A stretch of DNA of 24,216 bases from a virus. Position numbers and translations under genes: made by a program. Positions within the stretch are counted from its first letter, which is position 1. Every line of letters begins with the position of its first letter. Positions 4,441-17,848 of the stretch are shown here, in pieces. The notes beneath the pieces were generated by a model, which was not told the origin of the DNA, made no database searches, and saw only the letters and a list, made by a program, of their open reading frames with translations. Location of the stretch: IMG/VR virus record IMGVR_UViG_3300028767_000092, positions 1 through 24,216 of that record; one strand, written 5' to 3'.

Positions 4441-4475
4441 TAATAAAGGCATCCTATAATAGGATGCCTTTATTA
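4441..4475. terminator. Bidirectional terminator between lysis genes and integrase
   Basis: A perfect 17-bp inverted repeat (TAATAAAGGCATCCTAT and its complement around one central base). In practice this forms a stem of about 14 bp with A-rich 5' and T-rich 3' flanks. It lies between convergent genes: the spanin ends at 4417 on plus, and the integrase ends at 4477 on minus. It can serve both. Confidence 0.85.
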
Positions 4476-4476
4476 T

Positions 4477-5655
4477 TTAAAAATTTCCGTCATGATTTTT
4501 TATCAAGTCATTGGCTTGCTGTAGATCGTGCGGTGTATAAGTGTCTGTCATTAAAATATCAGCGTGACGTGCCTGATCGCGTACCGTTATAGAGTCATAT
4601 TTTCGTAGCATATTTGTTATTCCTGTATCTTTTAATGAATAAAATTTATATGTTGATGCGAATTTCAACGGCCTCCGAACGTACTTGGACCAATAGTCAC
4701 GAAATTGTTTTTCGCTGTGGTATTCTTTTCCAGGTTTGAATTTAGTTGAAAACAGATACCAACTACCCGGATTATCGAATATTTTCAATTCTACCATTAA
4801 ATGAATCACTTTAGCCGGAAGCGTAACCGTTCCATTTTTTTTGTTTTTTGAAACATCTTCGCCTATAAATACTGTTTGATTTACCAGTGAAAAGTTTTCA
4901 AGCTTGAGTAAACTCATTTCTTTGGGTCGAATAAAGCAATAATGCAATATATAGCAGGCTAACAAATAGTATCTATTTGTGTTTCCGACATGTTCTTTTA
5001 GCTTATCCATATCTTTTTCGGATATAATGGTCCGTTGCTTTTTGATTTTATTCTTACAAATCATCATAAATCCGTCGGATGCTTTTTCTTTCGCATACCG
5101 GTGTTGAACTAGCCAACTGCAAAACATGCGTATGAATCGAAGGTAGTTATTACGAGTTTGCATGGAGTTATCTCGCTCAATGTGGATGTGCTCAATGAAA
5201 TCCTCAATAAATTCAGCATTGAACTGATAAATGTAGGTTATTTTGTTTTTCCGTGAAGCGTTCCAACGTTCAACATTAACTATATACGAGTTGTAAGATA
5301 TGTAAGTCTCTTCCCGGTATTCATTATCTGCCAACATTTTAGATATAAAACGTTTATAGTGAGTGCAAACGTCCGTAAATGTATGATAGGCTTTACCGTT
5401 TTCAGTCTCAATCCATGGGTTCCATCCACGTTCCAATTTCGAATTCAGACGAATAATAAGCCCGTCAGCATATTTACGCCTATCTCCTATCCTTTCGATA
5501 AAATTTACCTTGATTTTTTTTCTACGCATGTCGTTAATGGATGGATCAAAAGCTTTGAATCCAACGTACCATTCTTTACCAGTGTAGAGTTTTGGAGGAG
5601 TATATGATTTTATTTCCTTGAGCGAGCTGCTCTGATTTTTGAAACTTGTAGGCAT
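4477..5655 (-). CDS. int: Phage integrase, tyrosine recombinase
   Basis: A 392-residue site-specific recombinase expected to integrate the phage at the neighbouring attP. An N-terminal arm-binding region (about 25-80) is followed by a SAM-like core-binding domain (about 90-195) and the catalytic domain. Catalytic residues read as R243 (FIRPKEMSLL), a Lys near 270-273 (SKNKKNG), a degenerate box YSLKDTG where the usual H-x-x-R is Y339-x-x-K342, then R363-H364 and nucleophile Y373 (TDTYTPH). I believe the substituted box recurs among Bacteroidota phage integrases, so it need not mean inactivity. The start at 5655 opens after a poly-A leader. The gene converges on the lysis operon and reads away from attP. 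Confidence 0.9.
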   Translation of the reverse strand: MPTSFKNQSSSLKEIKSYTPPKLYTGKEWYVGFKAFDPSINDMRRKKIKVNFIERIGDRRKYADGLIIRLNSKLERGWNPWIETENGKAYHTFTDVCTHYKRFISKMLADNEYREETYISYNSYIVNVERWNASRKNKITYIYQFNAEFIEDFIEHIHIERDNSMQTRNNYLRFIRMFCSWLVQHRYAKEKASDGFMMICKNKIKKQRTIISEKDMDKLKEHVGNTNRYYLLACYILHYCFIRPKEMSLLKLENFSLVNQTVFIGEDVSKNKKNGTVTLPAKVIHLMVELKIFDNPGSWYLFSTKFKPGKEYHSEKQFRDYWSKYVRRPLKFASTYKFYSLKDTGITNMLRKYDSITVRDQARHADILMTDTYTPHDLQQANDLIKNHDGNF

Positions 5656-5757
5656 TTTTTTTTACGCTTAAGGTCTGAAAACCAAAAGTGTAAAAAGTTT
5701 CTAACTGTAATTTTACATAAGTGTCCCGTTTTTGTCCCGGGTGGTTTAAACAACTAC

Positions 5758-5790
5758 AGCGAAAAACCTTTATAGTAAAGGATTTTCGCT
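5758..5790 (-). terminator. Hairpin following the tRNA-like end in attP
   Basis: Inverted repeat AGCGAAAAACCTTTA / TAAAGGATTTTCGCT with a 3-nt loop and one mismatch. Read on the minus strand it follows the tRNA 3' end in attP by about 6 nt. It could act as the terminator of the tRNA gene after integration, or as a structure used in recombination. No clear U-run follows, so the terminator role is weak. Confidence 0.4.
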
Positions 5791-5796
5791 GTTTTC

Positions 5797-5815
5797 TGTC
5801 GGGGTAGCGGGATTC
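5797..5815 (-). other. attP: Candidate attP core: 3' end of a tRNA gene, probably tRNA-Pro
   Basis: On the minus strand this reads GAATCCCGCTACCCCGACA. It fits the 3' part of a tRNA: T-loop end GAAT, T-stem CCCGC, acceptor strand TACCCCG, discriminator A, then CA. The C1-G72 pair and A73 implied by this end are typical of tRNA-Pro. The rest of the tRNA is absent: bases before GAAT do not continue the T-arm. It sits 142 bp upstream of the integrase start, and temperate phages commonly carry a tRNA 3' end in attP so that integration restores the host gene. The host attB is not in the window, so the exact crossover length is unknown. Confidence 0.65.
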
Positions 5816-5925
5816 CATTACTCACTTTTTGATTATCTAATTGTTTGATTATTAGTATTTGTGTTTTCTATTTTTTGTCGTTTATGTCCCGTTTTAGTAC
5901 CGGTACAAGTCAAAAAAATAGATTA

Positions 5926-6114
5926 TTACTTAATCTCTTTCAAGTGTTTAAACCGGAGTAGATCTATAATACACTTATCTACTTGAGGTTTTATTCTATC
6001 CATATCTACTTCGCGTATGTCATTACTTTCATTAAAGAGTAATGATGTTAGCTTACTGTGTTCTACATTAAAATTATCATTTATTCTTTCTATTTCAGTT
6101 CCTGATATTTCCAT
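5926..6114 (-). CDS. Small protein cotranscribed with the repressor
   Basis: A 62-residue, mostly helical, charged protein of unknown family. Its ATG overlaps the last base of the repressor stop (TAATG), so the two are probably translationally coupled and made together in the lysogen. It has no HTH motif, membrane segment or signal. Possible roles are repressor partner, antirepressor regulator or superinfection factor. None is supported beyond location. Confidence 0.5.
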   Translation of the reverse strand: MEISGTEIERINDNFNVEHSKLTSLLFNESNDIREVDMDRIKPQVDKCIIDLLRFKHLKEIK

Positions 6115-6470
6115 TAGTTCTGTTTTTTAGTGGTTAGTTTATTTATCGATTCAATTATATCTTCAAGTTCTTTTATCCTTTGTTGTTTTTCATTACAATT
6201 TTTACATTTGCTATATAATTCTTTCGATTCAGATACTACTGAGTTATATTTTATCATTTTTGATATATCCTGATCTTCGTTTTCTAACCATTCAGTATTC
6301 GCATTGAATTTTAATTCAAGAATTATTTTGACACTTTTAGAAATTTTTTTTGTTTTTCCACTCTCTAAATGACCGTATCCGGCTTGTTCTAAGCCTAATT
6401 CATTACCAAAATCAGTCTGATTATAACCCAACGATTTGCGTAAAAGTCTTATTTTTTCAGGTAAATTCAT
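6114..6470 (-). CDS. Lysogeny repressor, XRE/cI-type HTH protein
   Basis: A 118-residue DNA-binding protein. Residues about 4-62 form an XRE-type helix-turn-helix (IRLLRKSLGYNQTDFGNELGLEQAGYGHLESGKT), typical of cI-like repressors. Residues about 82-112 form a charged helical or coiled-coil tail with C89-x2-C92, probably for dimerisation or metal or redox sensing. It lacks a LexA/cI S24 peptidase domain, so RecA-stimulated self-cleavage is not expected and induction must work another way. It is transcribed away from the Cro-like gene at 6647 across a 176-bp control region with palindromes. Regulator identity is secure. The maintenance role is inferred from this classic divergent layout. Confidence 0.8.
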   Translation of the reverse strand: MNLPEKIRLLRKSLGYNQTDFGNELGLEQAGYGHLESGKTKKISKSVKIILELKFNANTEWLENEDQDISKMIKYNSVVSESKELYSKCKNCNEKQQRIKELEDIIESINKLTTKKQN

Positions 6471-6480
6471 GACTTTTATG

Positions 6481-6556
6481 TTTAGAATGATTCTAAATTA
6501 ATACTTTGTAGTAAAATATATGCTATTTTACTTGTGCATAAAACTACTATATAGTA
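6481..6556. promoter_or_regulatory. Candidate operators in the lysis-lysogeny switch
   Basis: Three palindromes lie in the repressor/Cro-like intergenic region. One is TTTAGAATGATTCTAAA at 6481-6497. The second is GTAAAATA (6511-6518) paired with TATTTTAC (6524-6531) across 5 nt. The third is TACTATATAGTA at 6545-6556, nested in a looser inverted repeat with outer arms GTGCA (6534-6538) and TGCAC (6561-6565). The third overlaps the rightward promoter. The three half-site sequences differ, so more than one regulator may bind. Confidence 0.55.
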
Positions 6557-6562
6557 TTTTTG
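6532..6562 (+). promoter_or_regulatory. Rightward early promoter (Bacteroidota type)
   Basis: TTG at 6532-6534, 20 nt, then TATTTTTG at 6555-6562, matching the -33/-7 pattern TTG-N19-21-TAnnTTTG. It would start transcription near 6569 toward the Cro-like gene at 6647. The palindrome TACTATATAGTA overlaps the start of the -7 box, which suggests direct repression. Confidence 0.55.
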
Positions 6563-6583
6563 CACATGTTCAATTATAAAGTA

Positions 6584-6614
6584 CAAACGTACAAAATTAT
6601 TTGACTTATAACAA
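6584..6614 (-). promoter_or_regulatory. Leftward promoter for the repressor operon
   Basis: On the minus strand, TTG at 6612-6614, 20 nt, then TACGTTTG at 6584-6591. It would start near 6577, giving the repressor mRNA a leader of about 107 nt that runs through all three palindromes. It faces the rightward promoter, so the two start sites nearly coincide and the promoters should interfere with each other. Confidence 0.5.
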
Positions 6615-6646
6615 TAGCAAAAATATACTACTCAATTAAATAACAA

Positions 6647-6859
6647 ATGAAAAGGTACGCATTTAAAAAAGGATTTTTACAGGTTCAGGTTGGTGATGCT
6701 GAAGAAGTAAAGAGCAAGCTGATAGCTGAATTAGGGTTAAACTCCCGAACCAGTTGGTATAACAGGCTGAATGGTGATGTAGAGCCAAAAGCTTCCGAAG
6801 TAAAAATAATAGAACAAATTTTTGCAGAAAAAGGAATTATTGATATTTGGGGAGACTAG
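6647..6859 (+). CDS. Cro-like small DNA-binding protein
   Basis: A 70-residue basic protein, first gene of the rightward early operon and divergent from the repressor, which is the position of Cro. The stretch VKSKLIAELGLNSRTSWYNRLNGDVEPKASEVKIIEQIF (about 21-60) reads as a helix-turn-helix with a recognition helix around SRTSWYNRLNG. Related short proteins occur at this place in Bacteroidota prophages. It ends in TAG 2 nt before the next ATG. DNA binding is likely. Antagonism of the repressor is inferred from position. Confidence 0.65.
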   Translation: MKRYAFKKGFLQVQVGDAEEVKSKLIAELGLNSRTSWYNRLNGDVEPKASEVKIIEQIFAEKGIIDIWGD

Positions 6860-6861
6860 CT

Positions 6862-7227
6862 ATGAATATAAATGCAAAACTAGCTCCGAAGCAATTACAA
6901 ATAGCTGAATTAATAGCTTGGGGTGCAACTGCTAAAGATTGTTCCAATATTTTGAAAAAATCATTGAATACTATTACTAACACTATTCGAAGAATTTTCG
7001 AAATAACTGAGGTTACAAAATCAAATGAATTATCTGCCTGGTTTTTTTGCACTCACTTTAATATTTCAATGGATTTATCTCCACTTGCGCGTAAAAAAGT
7101 CGCTTCGATATTACTACTATTTGTGATTTTACAATTATTCAATCCTAACGAGTTCAATATGAGGACACGAAGAGCTAAAAGAGCTCGTAAATCAGAAACT
7201 GAATATGTAGACTATATAAACAATTAA
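6862..7227 (+). CDS. LuxR-type HTH protein with hydrophobic and basic tail
   Basis: A 121-residue protein from ATG 6862. An upstream in-frame TTG at 6847 overlaps the previous gene and is less likely. Residues about 7-62 match a LuxR/GerE helix-turn-helix (LAPKQLQIAELIAWGATAKDCSNILKKSLNTITNTIRRI). There is no receiver domain. A hydrophobic stretch at 79-93 (KVASILLLFVILQLF) could be a membrane segment or buried helix, followed by a very basic tail RTRRAKRARK. It may be an early-gene activator, perhaps membrane-associated. The combination recurs in Bacteroidota prophages, but I know no assigned function. Confidence 0.65.
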   Translation: MNINAKLAPKQLQIAELIAWGATAKDCSNILKKSLNTITNTIRRIFEITEVTKSNELSAWFFCTHFNISMDLSPLARKKVASILLLFVILQLFNPNEFNMRTRRAKRARKSETEYVDYINN

Positions 7228-7232
7228 ATTTT

Positions 7233-7640
7233 ATGACACACTCAATTGAAGCCTTCGAATCTGCTCTACTAAAAATGAAAGTAGACATATTAAATATCAA
7301 TTCTCCTACTGGCCGAGTTTCAGCAGCATTGGGATATATGCCAGATGGTAAATTATACCTATGGGATGAAAATGGCAAATGCTACAGAGAAAAAAAATCA
7401 TATCCTGAGTATGATATAGTATTTATCAATGATTATACTATATCTACAGATCAGAAGCTTGTAGCTCATTTTTCTGAAATGCATAAGTTCAAACGTCCAT
7501 TCTTCTCATTTAATGTGAACTGTTCAAAATGCTCACTACTAAAACCTTGTATTTCTATTAATACCGATGAATTTCCTTTCCCATGCATGTCATGGAATAG
7601 AAAAGATCAAAAGAACGGTCACTTCCTTTTAAAACGATAA
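7233..7640 (+). CDS. Hypothetical early protein with C-terminal Cys cluster
   Basis: A 135-residue protein of unknown family, 5 nt after the LuxR-type gene and 4 nt before the next one, so part of the early operon. The C-terminal half has C97-x2-C100-x5-C106-x11-C118 (NCSKCSLLKPC...FPFPCMSW), which could bind zinc or an iron-sulfur cluster. The N-terminal half is mixed alpha/beta without a motif I recognise. Small Cys-cluster proteins in early phage regions are often host-takeover or DNA-binding factors. That is only a guess here. Confidence 0.55.
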   Translation: MTHSIEAFESALLKMKVDILNINSPTGRVSAALGYMPDGKLYLWDENGKCYREKKSYPEYDIVFINDYTISTDQKLVAHFSEMHKFKRPFFSFNVNCSKCSLLKPCISINTDEFPFPCMSWNRKDQKNGHFLLKR

Positions 7641-7644
7641 TTAT

Positions 7645-7914
7645 ATGATAGAAATTAAACTTGTTTTTTCAAATGAGGATGCTATTTCTATATTTAGAAA
7701 TGCGGGACTACTGGTAGAAATGCATGATTTTCCGATTTATTTTGGTCGCTATCATGGAGATAAAGAGGACTTAATTCCTATGTTGGCCGTAAAAAATCCA
7801 CACAATGATAAGATGGAAAAGCTTGAACCTATTTTTAGAAAATATATGGAAGCAAAAAAGAAAGAATTGTTTCTAACTCCTGAAAAATTAGATATTTACA
7901 ATTTATTTAAATAG
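7645..7914 (+). CDS. Hypothetical small early protein
   Basis: An 89-residue soluble protein, 4 nt after its upstream neighbour and ending in TAG 1 nt before the next ATG. It begins with a beta strand (MIEIKLVFSNEDA) and ends in a long charged helix (KMEKLEPIFRKYMEAKKKEL...). No catalytic motif, membrane segment or signal is visible. Tight packing in the early operon is the only clue to its role. Confidence 0.55.
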   Translation: MIEIKLVFSNEDAISIFRNAGLLVEMHDFPIYFGRYHGDKEDLIPMLAVKNPHNDKMEKLEPIFRKYMEAKKKELFLTPEKLDIYNLFK

Positions 7915-7915
7915 T

Positions 7916-8002
7916 ATGAACATGAATAAAGCTAATAAAATATGTGCAGCTATATTGTTGATTTATTTTTCAGCATTAATTATAACAGTCATTCTGACAT
8001 GA
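7916..8002 (+). CDS. 28-residue membrane peptide
   Basis: A short ORF beginning MNMNKANK followed by one hydrophobic helix (about residues 9-27, ICAAILLIYFSALIITVIL) and stop. It opens 1 nt after the preceding stop. Its TGA overlaps the next ATG (ATGA at 7999-8002), so it is probably translated and coupled to the downstream membrane protein. It may be a small superinfection or accessory lysis peptide. The coding call rests on spacing and composition. Confidence 0.5.
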   Translation: MNMNKANKICAAILLIYFSALIITVILT

Positions 8003-8208
8003 AAAAGAACAAAACTAAACTACAGCTCCAACGTGAGTACGATTGTAGAAACGATATTCTTTTTAAAGCGATAATAATGTCAATCATAGGTTTTGCGATA
8101 GTTTGTTTGATAATATCTAAAATTCAAAATTATAATACCCGACAAGGTGCCCACTCTGAAAGCGTTCAGGTGGTGGTAGAGAAAGACTGCCAACAGATAA
8201 AAAGGTGA
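7999..8208 (+). CDS. Small single-span membrane protein
   Basis: A 69-residue protein from ATG 7999, chosen because it overlaps the stop of the 28-codon gene by 4 nt. A longer in-frame start at 7942 would lie inside that gene. The N-terminus is basic and hydrophilic (MKKNKTKLQLQREYDCRND), one transmembrane helix spans about residues 24-40, and the tail is short and polar with one Cys. With the preceding membrane peptide it forms a small two-gene membrane unit at the end of the early operon. Its last codons lie in the left arm of a long inverted repeat. Function unknown. Confidence 0.5.
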   Translation: MKKNKTKLQLQREYDCRNDILFKAIIMSIIGFAIVCLIISKIQNYNTRQGAHSESVQVVVEKDCQQIKR

Positions 8209-8294
8209 GTGAAACGGGACAATAAAAAAATATAGATGTGAACAATCTTTTAATGGAGCCCAAAGTCTCGGGGCACAACACTCACCTTTTTTTT
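8200..8294 (+). terminator. Long-loop inverted repeat with U-tract
   Basis: AAAAGGTGAGTG (8200-8211) and its exact complement CACTCACCTTTT (8279-8290) enclose 67 nt and are followed directly by more T residues (to 8294). The loop holds a further possible stem (GCCC/GGGC around 8258-8274). The left arm contains the stop of the preceding gene. It probably ends the early operon. The large structured loop leaves room for a regulatory RNA. Confidence 0.5.
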
Positions 8295-8420
8295 ATAACG
8301 ATAGAGCTAATAGCACTGGCGAGTGCGGGCGATGAACTGTCGGGGTAAGGAAAAACAAAAGCGGGCTATAATACTTCTAAAAGCATATAACCCGCCAGTG
8401 ATTTTAGCTGAGTGTTATCA
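8293..8420 (+). other. attC: attC-like site 1
   Basis: R''-like TTATAAC (8293-8299), 5-nt spacer, L'' AGCTAATAGCACTGGCG (8305-8321), L' CGCCAGTGATTTTAGCT (8393-8409), 4-nt spacer, R' GTTATCA (8414-8420). L'' and L' pair at 14 of 17 positions. It is the left end of the array. No partner R' for its R'' was found upstream, so it may mark a lost cassette or the array boundary. Confidence 0.75.
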
Positions 8421-8579
8421 TTCGTTTTTTCTTTCTTCGTCCCATTTTTGAATTGCTTCAAGTAACTTTTGAACTGTTTGCTCATGTTTTTGTGGCATAC
8501 GATTTTTAGTTACAACGGAACGAGAGCCAGCCAGTAACCGGCTAAGCTCTCCCCAATTGATTAATTCAGCAGGATTCAT
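8418..8579 (-). CDS. Cassette 1, gene b: 53-residue phage-type protein
   Basis: A 53-residue protein (begins MNPAELINWGELSRLLAG, ends KWDEERKNE). Its ATG overlaps the stop of the upstream gene by 4 nt (ATGA), and its TGA lies inside the R' core of attC site 1. The gene therefore fills the cassette to its very edge. The central SRSVVTKNRMP and the helical C-terminus are reminiscent of small proteins common in Bacteroidota phages, possibly DNA-binding. I cannot assign a function. It is opposite in orientation to the other cassette genes. Confidence 0.65.
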   Translation of the reverse strand: MNPAELINWGELSRLLAGSRSVVTKNRMPQKHEQTVQKLLEAIQKWDEERKNE

Positions 8580-8788
8580 AAAACTTCTGTTTCAAATACT
8601 ACTTCTTCTGTTTCATTACATACGATTGATACTGAACCGCCTTTGTAATCAGAAAAGTAAGAATGATTACTACTATTGTGCATTTCAATATAATCCTTGC
8701 AATACTCAAGAGAAGATTTGAAACCTAAGTTATTAGAATTAGAATCATCATTAAAGAAAATGTCGAATGTGCTGTTAGTTGAGTTCAT
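8576..8788 (-). CDS. Cassette 1, gene a: 70-residue phage-type protein
   Basis: A 70-residue acidic protein starting at ATG 8788. The frame stays open upstream, but a strong promoter -7 box at 8834-8841 lies inside that extension, so 8788 is the sensible start. The segment SLEYCKDYIEMHNSSNHSYFSDYKGGSVSIVCN (about 30-62) resembles small conserved proteins of Bacteroidota phages and mobile elements. No enzymatic motif is seen. It forms a two-gene operon with the 53-residue gene and carries its own promoter, as expected for a reversed cassette that cannot use an upstream array promoter. Confidence 0.65.
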   Translation of the reverse strand: MNSTNSTFDIFFNDDSNSNNLGFKSSLEYCKDYIEMHNSSNHSYFSDYKGGSVSIVCNETEEVVFETEVL

Positions 8789-8833
8789 AATGTTTAATTT
8801 TTTAATTGTATGTATTACTTGTTGTTTGTGATA

Positions 8834-8866
8834 CAAAGATACAACGATTGTTGCATACAATCCAAA
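8834..8866 (-). promoter_or_regulatory. Promoter inside cassette 1
   Basis: On the minus strand, TTTG (8863-8866), 21 nt, then TATCTTTG (8834-8841). This is a full match to the Bacteroidota -33/-7 consensus TTTG-N19-21-TAnnTTTG and the clearest promoter in the window. It drives the two minus-strand cassette genes, with a leader of about 40 nt. Confidence 0.75.
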
Positions 8867-8943
8867 TAATTAATGTTAAAGTTGCAACAAATGTTGTTTA
8901 TTTAACTTTGAGCTTCGAAAACGCACGGATTTCTTTCTAAAAT

Positions 8944-9083
8944 GAATGATAACGGACAACTGCTATGATTATAAGCCCAATTACGGGTGCATAGCTTTCA
9001 AACGTTAGACAAAATTTCAAGCGAGTAAATAACTTTCAATAACCGAAAAAGCGGGCTTATAAACATAGCAATTGTTATCGGTA
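8944..9083 (+). other. attC: attC-like site 2
   Basis: R'' TGATAAC (8947-8953, extending the end of cassette 1 to 8944), 7-nt spacer, L'' TGCTATGATTATAAGCCC (8961-8978), L' GGGCTTATAAACATAGCA (9053-9070), 3-nt spacer, R' GTTATCG (9074-9080, extending into cassette 2 to 9083). L'' and L' pair at 17 of 18 positions, the best stem of the four. Spacer lengths are asymmetric, as in classical attC sites. Confidence 0.82.
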
Positions 9084-9106
9084 GCTTATTCTTAATCTTT
9101 AAAACA

Positions 9107-9508
9107 ATGCCAGAAATAAGATTTCACTTAAACGAAAAGATAATGTATAATGATACTTCATCAAATTACATTAAATGTCGAATATTAGATATTCAGTCGT
9201 GTCCATATTACGAAAATTATGGCAAAGGTCCAGTTTTCGCATATAATATATACACATACAAACTAAAGTTTGAAAATGGTAAAATAGCCGATACTGTTGA
9301 ATCAGGTAGATTTAGAAAAATGCTTGAATTTTCAAATTTTAAAGTAGGTGATATAGTTCCGTACAAAAATACAAGAGGAAATATTAGAGAAACAAAAATT
9401 ACCGAGTTTAAAGAGCTTTCAGACGGTAATGTTTGGTATTATGGAAATGATACTGTAACAGATGCTATTACTTATTACCCGGTGCATCTTTCTTTAAGTT
9501 ACCGATAA
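9107..9508 (+). CDS. Cassette 2 gene: hypothetical protein with two SH3-like halves
   Basis: A 133-residue soluble protein of unknown family. It starts 33 nt after the R' core of site 2. Its TAA is embedded in the R'' core of site 3 (CGATAAC), so it spans almost the whole cassette, the usual compact cassette layout. Two similar openings, FHLNEKIMYNDTSSNYIKCRILDI (about 5-28) and FKVGDIVPYKNTRGNIRETKITEF (about 77-100), suggest a duplicated small beta-barrel (SH3/Tudor-like). That structural reading is an inference. No promoter is evident, so expression would come from upstream. Confidence 0.7.
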   Translation: MPEIRFHLNEKIMYNDTSSNYIKCRILDIQSCPYYENYGKGPVFAYNIYTYKLKFENGKIADTVESGRFRKMLEFSNFKVGDIVPYKNTRGNIRETKITEFKELSDGNVWYYGNDTVTDAITYYPVHLSLSYR

Positions 9509-9636
9509 CGACCGAGGCTATGAGTGCAGCCGATTACTGGCTACTTCGCTGCACTAAAACCGATGAAGCACATGCGAGATATAAACCTGAATAACCGATG
9601 CAGTAGGCTGCAACTGATAGCCGTGTGTTATCGTTT
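9500..9636 (+). other. attC: attC-like site 3
   Basis: R'' CGATAAC (9503-9509), 6-nt spacer, L'' GGCTATGAGTGCAGCC (9516-9531), L' GGCTGCAACTGATAGCC (9606-9622), 4-nt spacer, R' GTTATCG (9627-9633). L'' and L' pair throughout except for one mismatch and one unpaired base in L'. The resulting stem with an extra-helical base is the hallmark used by integron integrases to choose the strand. Confidence 0.82.
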
Positions 9637-9679
9637 CGGTTTTTCTTTCTTTCGATTTAAACAATTTAATATCAACTAT

Positions 9680-10174
9680 ATGAAAACTTATGTATTAACA
9701 GTTAGTGTAAAATTCCCAAAAACACACAAAAAATCGGGACAAGCAACTTATTTTACTGAACAGATATTGGGTAAATTTCCTTATGATTTACCGGATAATA
9801 GTCCGAGTAAAATACACACAATTAGAGCTAATTATCCCTTGTGGGCAAAACGTATTTCAGAAATTCAAAACGGTAAAGCAATTCTTTCTATTCGTTACTG
9901 GAGTGATAAGCCTTATAATTCAAAACAGGTCGAAATTTGCCAACTTGACAAAAATTCAGGTATTGGGATTCAATTATTAAACCTTTCTGATACTATGATA
10001 AGTGGAGCTTTGAAAAATCATGATGTAGCATTAACCAGTTTGAATGGCGGATTATCATTATCCACTATTGCAAAAAATGACGGTTTATCGCTCGAAGATT
10101 TCAAAGAATGGTTTAAAGGTTACGATTTATCACAATCAATGGCTATTATTCACTTCACTTCGTTTCGCTACTAA
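9680..10174 (+). CDS. Cassette 3 gene: conserved phage-type hypothetical protein
   Basis: A 164-residue protein from ATG 9680. The frame is open back to 9524, but that part covers attC site 3 and is rejected. The core PSKIHTIRANYPLWAKRISEIQNGKAILSIRYWSDKPYNSKQVEI (about 34-80) is typical of a protein family seen in Bacteroidota phages and may be an ASCH-like beta-barrel. This is a fold guess only. The C-terminal GLSLEDFKEWFKGYDLSQSMAIIHFTSFRY is equally characteristic. It begins 53 nt after the upstream R' and ends 18 nt before its own R'', as a cassette gene should. Function unknown. Confidence 0.75.
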   Translation: MKTYVLTVSVKFPKTHKKSGQATYFTEQILGKFPYDLPDNSPSKIHTIRANYPLWAKRISEIQNGKAILSIRYWSDKPYNSKQVEICQLDKNSGIGIQLLNLSDTMISGALKNHDVALTSLNGGLSLSTIAKNDGLSLEDFKEWFKGYDLSQSMAIIHFTSFRY

Positions 10175-10189
10175 TCTTTTTTTAAACTG

Positions 10190-10287
10190 AACGATAACGA
10201 TTAGGCTATGAAACGTATCCACTGTACAAAACTGTCAAACCGCTAAACCGCTTATGTGGCTATGTTTAATAGGCGTATGTTAGGCAG
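10190..10287 (+). other. attC: attC-like site 4
   Basis: R'' CGATAAC (10192-10198), 5-nt spacer, L'' GGCTATGAAAC (10204-10214), L' GTTTAATAGGC (10264-10274), 4-nt spacer, R' GTTAGGC (10279-10285). The L arms pair at 9 of 11 positions. R'' and R' here share only the AAC/GTT core, because R' belongs to cassette 4 and R'' to cassette 3. GTTAGGC fits the classical GTTRRRY consensus exactly, unlike the GTTATC type of the other sites. Confidence 0.75.
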
Positions 10288-10344
10288 TCGTTTATCTCTT
10301 TTCTTGTTACAAATAAAATTATTAAACACTTAAAATAAATTATT

Positions 10345-10614
10345 ATGTCTGAACAAAAAATTATCGCAACGGTAGAAATAGATTTTAAAGAAGGTAGAAA
10401 ATCAATCGAAATGGAATTAAAAAAAGGCTTTGAAATCGAAGATTGTGACGAAAACAAAGTAGTCGTTTTAAATTTGAAAAATGGTGAAACATATACTGGT
10501 ATTTTTAAAGGAATGGACGGAGACGAAGATTTAATGTTTGGTTCATTGTCTAGTGGAAGTCGAATTGGTTTAAAAGTTCATTGGGTTCGTGATTACTTGG
10601 AGGCTCTTTCTTAA
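10345..10614 (+). CDS. Cassette 4 gene: small protein with Sm/SH3-like segment
   Basis: An 89-residue acidic protein. It starts 66 nt after the upstream R' and stops 3 nt before CTGCCTAAC, the end of its cassette. The N-terminal half alternates charged strands (IIATVEIDFKEGRKSIEMELKKGFEIE). The C-terminal half, VVVLNLKNGETYTGIFKGMDGDEDLMFGSLSSGSRIGLKVHWV (about 40-81), has the look of a small Sm/Hfq-like or SH3 beta-barrel (LKNGETYTG.F). RNA or nucleic-acid binding is conceivable but untested. A-rich leader, no clear promoter of its own. Confidence 0.7.
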   Translation: MSEQKIIATVEIDFKEGRKSIEMELKKGFEIEDCDENKVVVLNLKNGETYTGIFKGMDGDEDLMFGSLSSGSRIGLKVHWVRDYLEALS

Positions 10615-10617
10615 ATG

Positions 10618-10626
10618 CTGCCTAAC
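10618..10626 (+). other. Truncated attC-like site 5 (R'' half only)
   Basis: CTGCCTAAC, the exact complement of the start of cassette 4, contains the consensus R'' GCCTAAC. No L' or GTT core follows before the recombinase start at 10678. The last site is therefore incomplete, as if the right end of the array was deleted or joined to the recombinase gene. Confidence 0.7.
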
Positions 10627-10677
10627 TACTATCTATCAAAAACGTCTATAAACTTCTAATTTTAAACTAAATATATT

Positions 10678-11517
10678 ATGAATATCGGAAACTACACACG
10701 TCAACTTTCCGAAAGTATTCGGTATAAAAGATATTCTGAAAATACGGTGAATAGCTATGTGGCTTGTATCACTAAGTTTTTACAGCATTTCGAAAAGGAA
10801 GGTTTTACAAAGCCTTCCGAGATATCGGCTGATCGGATTAAAAAGTTTTTAGGTGCGATGACTAATCCGGGAACGCATAAGGCTTATTTGTGTGCGATTA
10901 AGTATTTCTACTCAGAAGTTGGCCGTCAGCCACGGAAGTTGGATAATGTGCAGTACCCGCATAAAAGTAGAAAGTTACCTATAGTGCTTAGTCAGGAAGA
11001 AATACAGCGCATGTTTACTGCCTGTACTAATACGAAGCATAAGGTTATTCTTTCGTTGCTTTACTCTACCGGTTTGCGAGTTTCGGAATTATTGAATTTG
11101 AAGTAGTGCAATATTGACAGATCGAGAATGGTGATTAATATCATCGAAGGTAAAGGAAAAAAGGATCGTCAGGTAATGTTGCCGGAAAACATTATCCCAT
11201 TGCTCGAAAAATACTACAAGGAGTATAAACCGAAGGAATATGTTCTTAATGGTCAGTTTTCGATTCAGTATTCGCAAACAAGTGTATTGTCAGTTGTAAA
11301 GGAATTGGCAAAGAAAGCAAAGATTGACAATAAGCGTGTATATACTCACCTGATCCGTCACTGTAGTTTTACGCACATGGTCGAAAATGGTGTTGACATA
11401 AATTTAATTCAGCGATTAGCCGGTCATAATTCTGTAAAAACAACGGCTATTTATACCCATATTTCGCATAATATAGTTTCACGTATACAATCCCCGATAG
11501 CAAATATTCGATTATGA
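10678..11517 (+). pseudogene. Xer/IntI-like tyrosine recombinase interrupted by an amber codon
   Basis: A 279-codon tyrosine recombinase with an in-frame TAG at codon 143 (11104-11106), between LLNLK and CNID. A SAM-like N-terminal domain (about 5-90) precedes a complete catalytic set: R134 (GLRVSELL), K159 (EGKGKKDR), H224-x-x-R227 (THLIRH), H250 (AGHNS) and Y259 (IYTHIS). Family members usually have an aromatic residue at the interrupted place, so a TAT/TAC to TAG change explains it. No IntI-specific insert is obvious, so Xer-like is the safer family name. It starts 52 nt after the cassette array and overlaps the next ATG by 4 nt. It is the obvious candidate recombinase for the array but probably inactive in this copy, unless TAG is suppressed. 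Confidence 0.8.
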
Positions 11518-11876
11518 GCCTACAACATCTACAACTAAAATCACTATCAGATCCGACATGGATTGATAAGTACATTCATGAAATGGGAGAACGATCATTC
11601 TGGGGTTATCACCGATGGGTGTATGATACTCTTGATAACTTGAAATTTGGCGAATGGATAGCTGTAGAAAAATGGGCGAATGCTGAAAAGATTGATTTAT
11701 TTGTAAAATTGTGTTGCTGCTACATATCCGAAACAAACTACGATTACGAATTTAATGCCGACGGAACAATACTGAAGCACAAATTTGATAGAAACTATTA
11801 CCAACCATTACTTGACAGACTAAAAGCAAAGAAATATGAAACCATAGTCCACAGCACAGAAGAGATATGTGTATAA
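11514..11876 (+). CDS. Hypothetical protein, head of the replication block
   Basis: A 120-residue protein of unknown family whose ATG overlaps the recombinase stop by 4 nt (ATGA), so the reading order recombinase then this gene is old and coupled. It is rich in Trp, Tyr and Lys (for example GERSFWGYHRWVYDTLDNLKFGEWIAVEKWANAEKIDLF), mostly helical, without a membrane segment. It lies directly upstream of an HTH-like gene and the primase-helicase, which suggests a DNA-replication or regulatory role. No motif confirms this. Confidence 0.55.
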   Translation: MSLQHLQLKSLSDPTWIDKYIHEMGERSFWGYHRWVYDTLDNLKFGEWIAVEKWANAEKIDLFVKLCCCYISETNYDYEFNADGTILKHKFDRNYYQPLLDRLKAKKYETIVHSTEEICV

Positions 11877-12225
11877 GCATATCCACGATAAACCACTTCC
11901 GCAAATTTCGAAAGATATTGGACGAAGCGAACGAGCTTTGAATTTATTCCTTCACCGAAACCGCCATGATCCACGGTTATGCGTAACGCACCGAAATTTA
12001 TTGTACCAGTTGCTGAAAAAGAAGTTTAAAGATGTGGATTGCTTCACTCCTACCCGCACATTCTTCGACGCTGTACAGATGGGGCAAAAAAGATATTGGT
12101 CTATTTTCAAAGGGTTAGAAGTTATTAAAGAAGATGAATTAAAAAGAATCGCAAACTATTTAGAAGTTACGTTGGAGGATATTTACGAAGTCCGCCAAAC
12201 TGAACTTTTCGAAAATCATAAATAA
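11869..12225 (+). CDS. Probable HTH protein upstream of the primase-helicase
   Basis: A 118-residue basic protein starting with GTG at 11869, which overlaps the preceding gene by 8 nt. The only nearby ATG (11867) is in another frame. Residues about 10-30 (LPQISKDIGRSERALNLFLHR) read as a helix-turn-helix. A second Cro/XRE-like helical part lies near the C-terminus (YWSIFKGLEVIKEDELKRIANYLEVTLEDIYEV). It ends 3 nt before the primase-helicase gene, so the two are likely co-translated. It could be a replication initiator accessory or a regulator of this operon. DNA binding is inferred from the helical pattern only. Confidence 0.6.
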   Translation: MYKHIHDKPLPQISKDIGRSERALNLFLHRNRHDPRLCVTHRNLLYQLLKKKFKDVDCFTPTRTFFDAVQMGQKRYWSIFKGLEVIKEDELKRIANYLEVTLEDIYEVRQTELFENHK

Positions 12226-12228
12226 TCT

Positions 12229-15200
12229 ATGAACTATTTTACTCCTGAGATACTCCAAAAAGTTCGTGACCGCATGGTTATCGAAGAAATTGTTTCAAAG
12301 TCAATAAAACTTACCAAAAAAGGAAAAAATCATGTTGGGATCTGCCCATTTCACTCCGACAATGCACCGTCGCTAGTTGTTTCACCGGCAAAAGGAATAT
12401 ACAGTTGCTTTGCATGTGGTGCCAGTGGTGACGCTATCAAATTTGTACAGGAGCATGACCGGGTTACGTTTGTGGAAGCTGTCAAATCGATTGCTAACGT
12501 GTATCATATCGAACTACCGGAAGCAAAGCAAACACCCGAAGAAATAGCCAAAGAACGCCAACGTGAATCGGTTTACAATGTGTTGGAAGAAACGCAAGCG
12601 CAATTCTCCGAAAATCTGAAATCATTTGCACCGGCTATCGAATACGTGAAGAATGTTCGTCAGCTAAGCGATGAAACGATTGATCTGTACCGTATCGGTT
12701 ATGCCAATGCCGACAATCAGATAGCACGTGAATTAGTGAAACGTGGCTATAATATGGATCTGCTGTTGGCAGCTGATGTAAGTCGTATTTCCGACGAAAG
12801 TAAAACTACTTACGATACTTTCCGTAAACGCATTATATTCCCCTATTTGAATCTTTATGGCAAGCCGATAGGATTTACAGGACGGATAACCGATAACACG
12901 GCTAAGGCTGCAAAGTACCTCAATACAGGCGATACCGTATTATTCAACAAAGGAAATGTATTGTTCGGATTGTTCCAGGCAAAAGAAGCTATTGCGAACG
13001 CAAATAAAGCTTATCTGTTGGAAGGGCAGTTTGATGTAGCTTCGTTTGCTCAGCATGGAGTTCGTAATGCAGTAGCCGGTTCGGGAACAGCACTCACCGA
13101 CGCACAAGCGCGCTTGTTGAAACGATTTACCAATACGGTGGTACAAATATACGATACCGACAATGCAGGGCTTAAAGCCAGTATTTCGAATGCTAAAACA
13201 TTACTCGCTCATGGGTTCGATGTAAAGGCTATTTTATTGCCTGATGGGCAAGACCCGGACGATTACGCGAAAGCTTCGGGCGATGAAGATTTAGCAGTAC
13301 TGATTGGAAATCGTGAAATGTCGTTTATCGAATACTTTTTCGAAGCTAAAAAAGTAGCTAAAGCGAGTGACTATGATAGTGCAAAGTTATTGGATCAGCT
13401 TTGCGAATGTATTGCAGCCGTGCCGGATAAATACCTTAGAGAGAAATATTTAAAAACTGTAGCAAATACATTTAATGTTTCGTTAAATGTACTGAAAGAT
13501 AAGGCAAAACCGAGTAAGGAACTGAAAACCGAAAAGTGGAAACATGGTTTTTATGGTGTGGAAGATGCTGTGGAACTGATGGAAGCTACGGATGAGGACG
13601 AATGCACATTGGTGTTCAAACAATCCGATTTTATTGACGAATACAGCGAAACTCCTACGCTATTGGCCGTTGGTAATCCATCAATGGTAGATATTCAATC
13701 GTTACGGTCGAAAATAAGTAAGTTGAATGTAGTTTCATTCTCTGAACTTCAACCAACCGATGATAAAGGCGACGGAAAAGAATTGCTGCTATTGAAAAAT
13801 ATGCACAAAAATGGATTTGATTTCTCCATTGAAATTGATGGAGAAAAAAAGAGTTTTTGTGACTACTACCTGTATTGCTATTCTGCTATTTTGGTAACCA
13901 CTACCGACGGAAGTAAGAAGTCGGAAATAGTAGGCCGGTGCGCTGAAGTAATATCGGATATTGACGCTACGGTGCGGGTAGTAATGAATAGTGAATATGC
14001 TAAAAAGATAGGCCTAACACAAGGATCGCTCGAAAAAGTGCTTAAACCTTTTCTTGCAAAAAAGAAAGATAAAACGCTTATTGATAACCAACGACTAGGC
14101 GAACTAAACGATACGCTAAACATTGATGCTGAAATAATACCTACCTATGTTCAGGACGATAAGGCATTGAGCGATGTGTATATGCGTTGGGGGTTTTATC
14201 CACTGGCTGACAAGAAAGGGCGCTTTTGTGCCTATATGTTCAAGAACCAAAACGGAAGTAGTCACTTCCCTATTACCGACTTCTATATTAAACCACTACT
14301 TCACGTTTACGACAACGAAAACGACGATGCGAATAATAAACGTGTTATTCAACTTTGCCACTTAGATCCGAAATTAGACAGGTATGTAGAATGGAAATCG
14401 ACTGTTTTTTCGGCTTTGCCAAAAGTGCACGAAAAATTGGTAAACGAAGGTCCTTACAATTTCTTTGGCGACAAAAACCAATTCCAAAAAATATGGATGA
14501 ATATGTCCTACGGTTTTCGCTATTGCCGGGCGATTAAAGTATTCGGACAACACCCGAAAGGGTTCTTTGCCTTTGGTAATGCTATTTTCCACAAGGTAGA
14601 AGGCGAATACAAAGTGGATGAAGTGGACGAACTCGGTTTAGTATCGCACGAAAACGACAATTTTTACAGCCCTGTATTTTCAAAAATCCGTATTTCGGAA
14701 GATGGAGACAATAGTTCATTCAACCAGGCACGTAATTTAGTTTATAGGGATATACCGGACGAAAAACAACTGAGTTTTGACGATTGGGCGATGCTGATGG
14801 ACAGTGTTTACTCGGTAAACGATAACGGTAAATGGGCGACACTTTTTGCCATAACATGCGCTTTCCGCGATTATATTTTCGAAATGCGTCGATATTTTAC
14901 AGCACTGTTTTTTATTGGTCCTACCAGTTCCGGTAAGAGTCAGATAGCTGAAAGTATTCGTAACCTATACATGGCCGATACTACACCGGCATTCAACCTG
15001 AATACCGGATCGGATGCGGGTATGTTTATGATCCTTGAATCTATCCGCAATGTGCCGGTGGTAATGGAAGAATACAACGACCGCGATATCAGCAAAGCAA
15101 AATTTCAAGGATTGAAAGCTGCTACACTGGATGGCGAAGGTAAAATAAAAGTAAAGGATGTAAACTCCAAACAGCTTGATAGTTCCGCTATCTATGCAAG

Positions 15201-16179
15201 CATTGTATTGCTCGGGCAGGAAGCTGCACAACAGGACGACGGTGCATTGAGTAACCGCTGTATTATGTGCGATGTACCTTACAGAAAAGGTGGAGATTTT
15301 ACGCAGGAAGAAACAGAAATTTTCGAACGATTGAAAGCTGCCGAAAAGACCGGTCTTTCTAACATTCTACTTCAAATATTAGAACTAAGGAGCTTATACG
15401 AAAAAAAATACCTAAGCATTCTGACCGAAGAAACAAAAAAACTGAAAGAATCGATACGGGTGACGGTGACTAATACCGAAGGTATGACACGTATAATCAA
15501 CGCATGTGCTCTAATGACAGCAACATGCAGACTATTAGAGGAAAATGCACAGCATTTAAAGTTGCCATTTAGTTACGCTGAATTCTTTCCTGTAGCCCGC
15601 GAAAAAGTACTAAGCCAGTTGGAACGCATATCAAGTACCAATAAGCTTACCACTTACTTCCAAACCATCAGTACGCTGATCACCCATGATAAAATAAAGA
15701 TCGGACGTGAAATAAAGATTGCTTCAGCATCGAAAGTAACACGGTTACTGAGTAGCAAAAAAACTGAAGAATTTGAATTGCCATTGGATACTAAAGTGCT
15801 GTATATCGATTTCGAAGCTGTATATGCACTTTACTCCTTCTCTATAGGTAAAGAAGAAGCTTTATCGCGCCAATCATTACGTGCTTACTTTGAATCGAAC
15901 CAGTCGTTTATCGGACTTACCAATAGTACCCGGTTTAAATGGGAAGTAGCCGAACAAACTGCCGGTGGTACTGATGCAACTATTACTGCTGATGGTGAAA
16001 ACGTAAATATCAACAATTATGCACGTATGCGAATGGTTACAAAGCAAAAAGTGACATCGGCTTATATGTTCAACTACAATATTCTTAAAACACAGATAGA
16101 CATTGACTTTGAACGAAACGTAGAAGTAAACACTTCAGGAGAAAAAACACCGGAAGGTAATACTGATTTACCATTTTAA
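12229..16179 (+). CDS. Phage replication primase-helicase fusion
   Basis: A 1316-residue replication protein. The N-terminal zinc-binding primase domain has C39-x2-H42-x17-C60-x2-C63 (CPFHSDNAPS...YSCFACGASG). The TOPRIM domain (about 258-345) shows E265-G266 and D309-x-D311 (QIYDTDNAG), followed by LLPDGQDPDDYAK, as in DnaG. About 500 residues of less conserved sequence come next. A P-loop NTPase then has Walker A G897-S904 (GPTSSGKS) and Walker B-like VPVVMEEYND (942-951), resembling helicase or DUF927-type ATPases of phage primase-helicases. It should lay down primers and unwind phage DNA at the fork. The protein ends TDLPF, an SSB-like tip also seen in the SSB-like protein at 17359. Primase identity is secure. 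The helicase class is inferred. Confidence 0.9.
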   Translation: MNYFTPEILQKVRDRMVIEEIVSKSIKLTKKGKNHVGICPFHSDNAPSLVVSPAKGIYSCFACGASGDAIKFVQEHDRVTFVEAVKSIANVYHIELPEAKQTPEEIAKERQRESVYNVLEETQAQFSENLKSFAPAIEYVKNVRQLSDETIDLYRIGYANADNQIARELVKRGYNMDLLLAADVSRISDESKTTYDTFRKRIIFPYLNLYGKPIGFTGRITDNTAKAAKYLNTGDTVLFNKGNVLFGLFQAKEAIANANKAYLLEGQFDVASFAQHGVRNAVAGSGTALTDAQARLLKRFTNTVVQIYDTDNAGLKASISNAKTLLAHGFDVKAILLPDGQDPDDYAKASGDEDLAVLIGNREMSFIEYFFEAKKVAKASDYDSAKLLDQLCECIAAVPDKYLREKYLKTVANTFNVSLNVLKDKAKPSKELKTEKWKHGFYGVEDAVELMEATDEDECTLVFKQSDFIDEYSETPTLLAVGNPSMVDIQSLRSKISKLNVVSFSELQPTDDKGDGKELLLLKNMHKNGFDFSIEIDGEKKSFCDYYLYCYSAILVTTTDGSKKSEIVGRCAEVISDIDATVRVVMNSEYAKKIGLTQGSLEKVLKPFLAKKKDKTLIDNQRLGELNDTLNIDAEIIPTYVQDDKALSDVYMRWGFYPLADKKGRFCAYMFKNQNGSSHFPITDFYIKPLLHVYDNENDDANNKRVIQLCHLDPKLDRYVEWKSTVFSALPKVHEKLVNEGPYNFFGDKNQFQKIWMNMSYGFRYCRAIKVFGQHPKGFFAFGNAIFHKVEGEYKVDEVDELGLVSHENDNFYSPVFSKIRISEDGDNSSFNQARNLVYRDIPDEKQLSFDDWAMLMDSVYSVNDNGKWATLFAITCAFRDYIFEMRRYFTALFFIGPTSSGKSQIAESIRNLYMADTTPAFNLNTGSDAGMFMILESIRNVPVVMEEYNDRDISKAKFQGLKAATLDGEGKIKVKDVNSKQLDSSAIYASIVLLGQEAAQQDDGALSNRCIMCDVPYRKGGDFTQEETEIFERLKAAEKTGLSNILLQILELRSLYEKKYLSILTEETKKLKESIRVTVTNTEGMTRIINACALMTATCRLLEENAQHLKLPFSYAEFFPVAREKVLSQLERISSTNKLTTYFQTISTLITHDKIKIGREIKIASASKVTRLLSSKKTEEFELPLDTKVLYIDFEAVYALYSFSIGKEEALSRQSLRAYFESNQSFIGLTNSTRFKWEVAEQTAGGTDATITADGENVNINNYARMRMVTKQKVTSAYMFNYNILKTQIDIDFERNVEVNTSGEKTPEGNTDLPF

Positions 16180-16210
16180 AAATAAAAATCAACAACTAAA
16201 AACAAAAAAA

Positions 16211-16894
16211 ATGACAGAAATTAAAGCAGAAAGTTACCGATTAGAAACAACTGATGGTAATTGGTTAGGACAGGTAGTAATTACTTCAGACGGCTTTTTC
16301 GGTTCTGTAACCGATTATGGAAACTTTTCATTTAAATGGAGTAGCATTGGCAAACAATCATTCAAAGAGTTTATTCTTTCTTTAAATGAAGATTATTTTG
16401 CAAAAAAAATGGCTCAGGGTGTTTCTTATACTGCTCACAATAAACAAATAGATAAATCATGTGAGCGGTTTGCTCAGGAAATACTTCCAGTGCTAAAGAA
16501 AAAGATACAGGAAGAAATTGATGCTGAAAAACAAGAAACTGAAAAGCCAAAATATTTGACAGTTGAAACTATTCCTGAAGATTTGGATTTTTCAAATATT
16601 CAACTTTATTTGAATGAAAATATATTTCTTCATTATATGGATTTAAATAATTGGGAAACTGATAATGATGGAAATGAAATAAATCGAATAATTGATTTTA
16701 GCTTTTCATTTTACGATTGTAATTATAATGTATATGTGATAGAAACAAAATTAGATAGAGATTTTGGATCTATTGAAATGAATGGAGATTCAGCATTATT
16801 TGATTCTTTCAATGAAGCCATGGAGGATGATTACTGGGAATTACTTGTCTCGTTATCTAAAAAGTATATTAAACATCTTAAAGAGGAGGAATAA
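16211..16894 (+). CDS. Conserved phage hypothetical protein
   Basis: A 227-residue acidic protein. Its first about 95 residues (ETTDGNWLGQVVITSDGFFGSVTDYGNFSFKWSSIG....FKEFILSLNEDYFAKKM) follow a pattern found in conserved proteins of unknown function from many phages. A coiled, charged linker (about 98-115) leads to an acidic C-terminal half rich in Asn, Asp and aromatic residues. It lies between the primase-helicase and an ASCH-domain gene, 3 nt before the latter, so probably in the replication operon. No catalytic motif is seen. Function unknown. Confidence 0.6.
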   Translation: MTEIKAESYRLETTDGNWLGQVVITSDGFFGSVTDYGNFSFKWSSIGKQSFKEFILSLNEDYFAKKMAQGVSYTAHNKQIDKSCERFAQEILPVLKKKIQEEIDAEKQETEKPKYLTVETIPEDLDFSNIQLYLNENIFLHYMDLNNWETDNDGNEINRIIDFSFSFYDCNYNVYVIETKLDRDFGSIEMNGDSALFDSFNEAMEDDYWELLVSLSKKYIKHLKEEE

Positions 16895-16897
16895 ACC

Positions 16898-17347
16898 ATG
16901 AAAACACTCTCAGTAAAACAACCATGGGTATATCTAATTTTTGCAAATATAAAACCTATCGAAAATAGAACATGGCCGTGTCCAAAAAAATATATAGGAG
17001 AAAGAATCCTTATTCATGCAAGTGCAAAACCTGATGATAGACACCGTGACATGTCTTTACTATTTACAAAGAATCAATGGGAAAAGATAACTATTGAAAA
17101 ACTTGAATCTTACATGTCACATGGATTGTGGATTTATTCTGCTATAATAGGTTCAGTAGAAATAGTAGATTGTGTTCTGAATCATACAAGTATTTGGGCT
17201 GAAAAAACAAATTTCATGCTTACCGGATCCGGTAAGCAAATAAGCATGAAATCACTGGTAACTATTCACGGAGTACAGTTTGTAGAATGCTACGAAAACG
17301 ATCAGCGCTATTCGGCAACAGAATTACAGGAAATAATTAATCAATAA
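16898..17347 (+). CDS. ASCH-domain protein
   Basis: A 149-residue protein with the N-terminal ASCH signature: LSVKQPWVYLIFANIKPIENRTWPCP (about 4-29), then GERILIHASAKP (about 34-45) and the SVEIVDCV strand (about 87-94). ASCH folds are PUA-like barrels that bind RNA or modified nucleobases, and some members hydrolyse N4-acetylcytidine. Phages carry them often, with unclear purpose. The gene has an unusually strong Shine-Dalgarno (GAGGAGGA at 16883-16890) that overlaps the end of the upstream gene, rare in this window. It also contains a 22-bp perfect palindrome (17217-17238). Domain call is firm, activity unknown. Confidence 0.8.
   Translation: MKTLSVKQPWVYLIFANIKPIENRTWPCPKKYIGERILIHASAKPDDRHRDMSLLFTKNQWEKITIEKLESYMSHGLWIYSAIIGSVEIVDCVLNHTSIWAEKTNFMLTGSGKQISMKSLVTIHGVQFVECYENDQRYSATELQEIINQ
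17217..17238. repeat. 22-bp perfect palindrome inside the ASCH gene
   Basis: Half-sites TGCTTACCGGA and TCCGGTAAGCA abut without a spacer. An overlapping second inverted repeat, TTTCATGCTTA (17212-17222) with TAAGCATGAAA (17241-17251), can form an alternative hairpin. It lies entirely within coding sequence, encoding FMLTGSGKQISMK. It could be a protein-binding site, a folding-back mRNA element or a recombination scar. Confidence 0.7.
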
Positions 17348-17358
17348 AAACAATCATT

Positions 17359-17733
17359 ATGAGTAACAATTTAGCAATCAAGTTGAATCTGACAAAGATT
17401 CCAGGTGCAGCATTAGTCGATTTAAAAGGAAATAATTCCACAAAAAAATGTATCATTATACCGGTAGAAGATTCCGGGTTATTTGTAGGTGAAAAAGGCG
17501 TGTATCTGAACTTAACCGGAATTGGGTACCGGGAGCCAAAGTATGAAGATACGCACTTCATAAAACAAAGCATAGATAAAGAAGCATTCACGGCCATGAG
17601 CGAAGCAGATCGCAATGCGCTGCCCATATTGGGCGGTATTCGCCCGATAGTAGTACAAACGACTCCGATGCAATCAAGTGGCGAAATGACCATAGAACCG
17701 GGTGCCGGTGATGGTAGCGATTTACCTTTCTAA
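17359..17733 (+). CDS. Candidate phage single-stranded DNA-binding protein
   Basis: A 124-residue protein with a beta-rich body (MSNNLAIKLNLTKIPGAALVDL...KKCIIIPVED...GVYLNLTGIGYREP) and a flexible Gly/acidic tail ending GDGSDLPF. Acidic tips ending in PF are the partner-docking element of bacterial SSBs (DDDIPF in E. coli). Length, tail and location in the replication block suggest an SSB-like OB-fold protein. The OB fold itself is not proven by motif. The primase-helicase ends TDLPF, so both proteins may dock on the same host or phage factor. Last gene before the 576-nt non-coding origin-like region. Confidence 0.6.
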   Translation: MSNNLAIKLNLTKIPGAALVDLKGNNSTKKCIIIPVEDSGLFVGEKGVYLNLTGIGYREPKYEDTHFIKQSIDKEAFTAMSEADRNALPILGGIRPIVVQTTPMQSSGEMTIEPGAGDGSDLPF

Positions 17734-17736
17734 TTT

Positions 17737-17848
17737 CAGAGACGAAAGTATTATTTTTCAGATCTAACTTCAGAGACGATGGTAATTCAACGGTCGGGCG
17801 CAAGTCCGGCCGTTCTTGTTTTCCAATACTCTCAAAGACGAAAGTATT
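17737..17848 (+). repeat. Three CAGAGACGAAAGTATT-type direct repeats
   Basis: CAGAGACGAAAGTATT at 17737-17752, CAGAGACGATGGTAATT at 17771-17787 and CAAAGACGAAAGTATT at 17833-17848. They surround the terminator hairpin right after the SSB-like gene. They differ from the GTAGGACG iterons further on and may be a second protein-binding array or duplication relics. Confidence 0.55.
17789..17820 (+). terminator. Terminator of the replication operon
   Basis: Stem AACGGTCGGGC (17789-17799) and GTCCGGCCGTT (17804-17814), 11 bp with two G-U pairs, closed by a GCAA tetraloop and followed by CTTGTTTT. A GNRA loop and U-rich tail are typical of intrinsic terminators. Confidence 0.75.

Follow-up and report, generated by a model that had tools for sequence, protein, structure and literature searches.

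The I2 helix of the integron recombinase IntI docks extrahelical bases of attC, and is held to enable the recombination of cassettes as single strands (PMC7790495). Phage-borne integrons and CALINs have been described with IntegronFinder and HattCI, which is to say as IntI and canonical attC sites, the CALINs being without a recombinase (PMC9892861), and integron software reports almost no complete integrons in Bacteroidota (PMC9024848). In a search of the published literature outside preprints, bioRxiv and most subscription journals, no phage cassette recombinase other than IntI came to light.

The phage system described here, that of the window and its relatives, resembles the integrons with IntI in several respects: the recombinase gene lies beside an attI-like site, single-gene cassettes lie on the 5' side of that gene and are reordered among relatives, and the hairpin-forming sites have AAC/GTT cores. 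Unlike those integrons, however, it has an enzyme without the I2 insert and outside the IntI clade, sites that depart from RYYYAAC/GTTRRRY, and cassette genes that face the recombinase, with the site 5' of the gene. It shares attC-like cassettes in a phage genome and methyltransferase cargo with the phage-borne integrons that Qi et al. described in 2023 (PMC9892861), but here the array is accompanied by a dedicated, non-IntI recombinase. XerA and the archaeal and Bacteroidota Xer-like recombinases (NF040815) are the best family and structural match, with the same domain layout and a similar length, whereas the attI-like site in the leader and the many hairpin sites set the phage system apart. 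XerA acts on a dif-type site.

The stretch of DNA analysed in its entirety (the window) is a virus record 24,216 bases long. Genes for tail fibre, endolysin, integrase, repressor, primase and head protease indicate that it probably comes from a tailed, temperate phage. Its integrase gene (PHROG 1; 4477-5655, minus strand), which adjoins the repressor, likely encodes the lysogeny integrase. Two repeat regions were also observed: TGTAGGACGGT and CCGTCCTACA motifs recur in direct and inverted copies at 17950-18262, possibly as iterons of a replication origin, and four tandem repeats of 84-93 nt (LSAYEIAVANGFVGTEAEWLASLHG) lie at 670-1037 within the tail-fibre gene. The gene of interest, at 10678-11517 on the plus strand, is a separate tyrosine recombinase interrupted by one in-frame stop. 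We consider it quite probable, on comparison with its relatives, that this gene encodes the enzyme that recombines the cassettes of an integron-like system in Bacteroidota phages, and that it was very recently inactivated in the window phage.

Hairpin sites and cassettes

Our family set comprises 59 loci obtained from scans of viral and genome contigs, with near-duplicates removed. Their hairpin sites follow a common plan of TAACG, a spacer of about 5 nt, a long stem, 1-2 nt and GTTA; across 144 non-redundant sites the two spacers are consistently unequal (about 5 nt vs 1-2 nt), and TAAC is followed by G in 138. A simple stem search returned 196 sites upstream of the recombinase genes vs 7 downstream (all loci, including some near-duplicates). 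Site density is 0.476 per kb upstream, 0.011 downstream and 0.0016 in shuffled sequences, in which about 1.7 sites would be expected in all. At least one site lies within 4 kb upstream in 41 of the 46 loci whose upstream sequence extends for 1 kb or more, the other five having no hairpin site above threshold, and in only 3 of 58 downstream flanks. These counts are descriptive, as the scorer was shaped on loci L022, L024, L018 and the window and then applied to them; the downstream contrast and the shuffles are its fair controls. The earlier note on this DNA, made from its letters, had named the widespread occurrence of intact homologues away from any cassette-like site as grounds for abandoning its reading; intact homologues are found instead beside similar arrays.

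In the window itself, hairpin sites lie on the plus strand at 8296-8417 (score 22.5, fold z -1.3), 8950-9077 (fold z -3.5), 9506-9630 (fold z -3.7) and, more weakly, 10195-10282 (score 18, fold z about -0.5), so that the recombinase gene does directly follow a cassette array, as the earlier note had seen. The sites at 8950 and 9506 have z below -3 on both strands, and those at 8296 and 10195 are unremarkable as folds. Across the family most hairpins fold better than shuffles, which is compatible with their recombination as folded single strands. The first cassette holds a pair of small ORFs on the opposite strand (8418-8791, minus), one of 53 aa and one of about 71 aa, and those that follow hold plus-strand ORFs of 133 aa (9107-9508) and 164 aa (9680-10174), neither with a family, and of 89 aa (10345-10614), with a weak LSM/SM-like match. 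No informative family was found for the cargo of the window's own cassettes.

The array ends on its right at a fixed junction (10615-10645, plus strand; GCTGCCTAAC joined to TACTATCTATCAAAA) with its TAAC at 10623-10626, and this is the point at which identity among relatives breaks off. Throughout the family loci a constant element, TAAC joined to TATTATATGTA or variants of it, stands 45-70 nt before the recombinase start codon. To the left of this TAAC the sequence is unrelated between phages even where identity in the recombinase and the right flank is 98-100%. Recombinases that are almost the same are preceded by four different left sequences, the change falling precisely at TAAC. By position and constancy, the element would be the counterpart of the attI site that integrons have next to the 5' end of their recombinase gene.

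The family arrays comprise 149 cassettes of median length 562 nt, each with one gene and one hairpin site. Integron genes read away from the integrase, by way of the promoter Pc; here the main ORF lies on the recombinase strand, and so faces the recombinase, in 146 of the 149. The hairpin stands at the 5' end of the cassette gene, and in 53 of 135 cassettes the ORF starts inside it (for example at L022 9735 and 8827), so that site and coding sequence overlap. From the stop codon of a cassette to the next TAAC the median distance is 11 nt. The reverse complement of a phage array presents attI, cassette and site in the order of an integron, with the genes inverted. Because the cassette genes point towards the recombinase, they would presumably be read by the phage operon and not from a promoter at attI.

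Evidence that cassettes are gained, lost and reordered as units comes from L022 and L024, which have a common phage backbone. Of the 12 cassettes in L022, numbers 4, 7, 8 and 9 (counted from 0) correspond to numbers 4, 6, 3 and 2 in L024, a permuted order. These four are 100% identical over their whole length (285, 330, 310 and 338 nt) and lie among unshared cassettes, and the ends of the common blocks fall on TAAC at both sides. Such permutation was seen in one group of related phages, which does not include the window. Likewise, L018 and L028 have one 821-nt cassette in common at 100% identity, although identity in much of the flanks is no more than 77-82%. These patterns are those expected of site-specific excision and reinsertion, whereas ordinary homologous recombination should not permute adjacent cassettes and leave their ends clean. 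We infer from the constant position of the gene that the neighbouring recombinase moves the cassettes. The upstream sites of relatives, the fixed junction and the permutation together lend strong support to the suggestion in the earlier note that this gene is the candidate cassette recombinase.

Among 101 cargo ORFs, methyltransferases are represented by C5-methylase (8), N6_N4_Mtase (7), Dam (2), MT-A70 (1), D12 (1) and EcoRI methylase (1) matches, beside PAPS reductase (5), TET-associated glycosyltransferase (2) and RNA-repair-like domains. A stock of anti-restriction genes is the natural guess for such cargo.

Chromosomal and cultured relatives

Arrays are likewise headed by less closely related recombinases of Bacteroidota genomes. 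L153 (G051:C44) has 13 sites in 16 kb upstream and L154 (G043:C33) has 12, with none downstream in either, and hairpin-site arrays upstream of Xer-like, non-IntI recombinases were observed at the chromosomal loci L153, L154, L155, L157 and L160. Most genes in the chromosomal arrays read away from the recombinase, the usual direction in integrons and the opposite of that in the phage arrays. A match to IntI is present in G043, G097 and G105, and there is none in G051. In L154 and L160 a nearly identical 124-nt element without an ORF (beginning TAACGTGGCTGGGCTAAGTACAGT) occurs in several copies within one array and is found in both of these genomes, alternating with gene cassettes.

Among the best matches to the recombinase, no named phage or plasmid exceeds about 38% identity. 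The cultured Polaribacter phage Leef_1 (MT732473; L129) has a recombinase that is 32% related and sits on a tree end branch of 2.0. This distant relative resembles the window phage in having a related recombinase preceded by hairpin sites that separate small ORFs (2228-5960 of the circular genome, before the gene annotated "integrase"), and would be a tractable model. Its authors describe the recombinase simply as an integrase and take it as a sign of a temperate lifestyle (PMC8776804).

The best-surviving rival to a cassette recombinase is that the gene encodes a phage integrase or Xer-type resolvase serving the phage genome, with the hairpin sites being moved by IntI or XerC/D of the host. 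A structure model (pLDDT 82, pTM 0.60, with a poor C-terminal tail), which is only fair and adds little to the sequence, matches XerA first and IntI4 second. The nearest solved structures are XerA and archaeal Xer proteins, which speaks for this rival; the presence of IntI in some array-bearing Bacteroidota genomes also suits it. It does not account, however, for an array whose position, in a divergent family, follows the recombinase gene in 41 of 46 loci, for an attI-like junction that is part of the recombinase leader, or for the 13-site array of G051, which stands beside a related recombinase in a genome without an IntI match. We therefore judge it improbable. A role for the gene as a cassette recombinase is further supported because the phage has a separate integrase.

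Family of the recombinase

Several features of the enzyme separate it from IntI. The intact relative L004 scores 178 bits on NCBIfam TIGR02249, under the curated cut-off of 265, and true IntIs of the same phylum reach up to 497 bits. The spacing from the catalytic Lys to HxxR is about 58 residues in the phage family vs 99-101 in IntI, and the IntI insert of about 40 residues (which holds the I2 helix) is a gap in every aligned family member, also when compared with 2a3v; it is absent from the chromosomal relatives as well. In a recombinase tree built by a quick search and with SH-aLRT support only, IntI forms a clade with 99% support, and the phage family forms its own (99%) within a Bacteroidota Xer-like group (97%). 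The integron consensus RYYYAAC fits 3 of 144 junction boxes, fewer than by chance, and GTTRRRY fits 7 of 144 distal boxes. Membership in IntI was rejected on these grounds of score, tree, insert and boxes. NF040815 (XerA/Xer) scores L004 at 204.6 bits, just under its cut-off of 220, yet is the best of all families. In the earlier description of the gene as Xer/IntI-like, the first half thus stands and the second does not; nor does the gene group with ordinary phage integrases, an outcome that would have counted against a cassette function, the lysogeny-type integrase of this phage being a different gene.

Capture by the phage of an ordinary integron, with IntI and attC sites as in Qi et al. 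2023, would explain the common plan of an attI at the recombinase 5' end, hairpin sites, single-gene cassettes and shuffling, as well as the fact that TIGR02249 is matched at all. We nevertheless find it very hard to sustain against the shortfall in score, the missing insert, a position outside a well-supported IntI clade, the scarcity of RYYYAAC at the junctions and cassette genes that face the other way. As an observation apart from this family, the recombinase at 3940-4875 of the viral contig L078 groups with true IntI, and integrons of the IntI type occur in phages too.

The amber codon

The recombinase frame comprises 279 codons and a terminal TGA, and its sole internal stop is the TAG at codon 143 (11104-11106, plus strand); the frame is otherwise as perfect as the earlier note had claimed, and R134, K159, H224, R227, H250 and Y259 are all present at the positions it gave. 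Pfam places Phage_int_SAM_4, the SAM-like N-terminal domain, N-terminal of the stop, and Phage_integrase, the catalytic domain, on both sides of it. The expectation of an aromatic residue at codon 143 is borne out in relatives, which have Trp in 49 and Ile in 2 of 51 aligned sequences; an automated count by motif gives TGG for this codon in 57 of 58 intact loci. Of the 59 family loci, the remaining 58 are free of premature in-frame stops, the relatives L004-L077 being intact.

The TAG is a real and recent nonsense mutation that arose by substitution. The earlier note had spoken of a recent single-base loss; recency is upheld, the loss of a base is not. Because the window protein deviates at none of 48 columns that are otherwise invariant in the family, decay of the gene has not begun, and an old pseudogene was rejected for want of private changes at such sites. 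The stop cuts the first catalytic Arg off from the rest of the active site, an interruption expected to abolish activity. A split enzyme restarting at the ATG at 11128 was also considered and is unlikely, with Arg134 on one piece and the other catalytic residues on the second.

Two IMG/VR contigs from other IMG samples, L002 and L003, are identical to the window across the whole gene, TAG included. L002 has no differences from the window over 4510-19440, and L003 has 4 in 17.3 kb. At about 4.3-4.5 kb the sequence of L002 changes to that of another phage arm, and identity further left is 81%. Judged from these alignments, the window, L002 and L003 are one lineage and not independent, and the TAG haplotype is one that took part in phage recombination. 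The mosaic breakpoint (L002/window 4297-4510) sits where a perfect inverted repeat (4437-4479) separates convergent genes.

If the TAG were translated, through a suppressor tRNA or recoding, the enzyme would be functional in the window phage. The undecayed remainder of the gene, and the survival of the haplotype through recombination with the phage that contributed the left arm of L002, both count in favour of this. On the other hand, the suppressor tRNA that the earlier note proposed to look for was not found in the window, L002 or L003, which yielded no tRNA gene at all, although these contigs are incomplete and a suppressor could lie in another part of the phage genome or be supplied by the host; relatives use TGG (Trp) at this codon; and no further window gene showed a TAG within its frame. 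As the earlier note had argued, TAG otherwise serves as an ordinary terminal stop, only at 2778, 6859 and 7914, where readthrough would add 17, 1 and 4 residues. Global recoding is unlikely because TAG ends these three genes with such short extensions and no tRNA was found, and we give translation of the TAG by any route a small chance. A sequencing or assembly error, which the earlier note had allowed for and which has nothing in its favour beyond the TAG being a single base, is next to incredible, since the TAG is not a slip of a single data set because L002 and L003 have it too.

With the TAG taken as a nonsense mutation, an array "frozen" in the window phage, as proposed in the earlier note, is plausible; the arrays of the window, L002 and L003 are identical, so their comparison has no power on this point.

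Discussion

Taken together, these observations place the recombinase family beside a row of swappable cassettes in Bacteroidota phages, which it very probably shuffles. The intact enzyme would recombine the hairpin sites (5'-TAACG, stem, GTTA), which stand at the start of each cassette, with the attI-like element of TAAC and TATTATATGTA, and single-gene cassettes would thereby be excised, inserted and reordered next to the recombinase gene. In the window phage the TAG at codon 143 would deprive the array of the recombinase that belongs to it, unless the codon is suppressed, and host amber suppression is possible. We infer from sequence the catalysis by enzymes of the window family, the single-strand folding of their sites and the loss of function. 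By the same evidence, the system appears to work like an integron, yet it is not one by its defining parts.

The chromosomal arrays lead us to lean slightly towards a broader proposal: a second, IntI-independent class of integron, without I2, in the chromosomes and phages of Bacteroidota, in which the phages carry and reorder anti-restriction genes and have inverted the cassette genes to suit their operons.

The finding may thus be larger than one broken gene, since it points to an integron-like system without I2 in Bacteroidota phages and chromosomes. A family that heads hairpin arrays with reordered cassettes and lacks I2 opens the I2-helix explanation of single-strand recombination to a direct test: the task would fall to some other region of the protein, or else the sites would be recombined as double strands. 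With its amber copy, the window phage provides a natural comparison, since its array would only just have lost the enzyme. For the phages themselves, the system shows how methyltransferases and other likely anti-defence genes could be kept and swapped.
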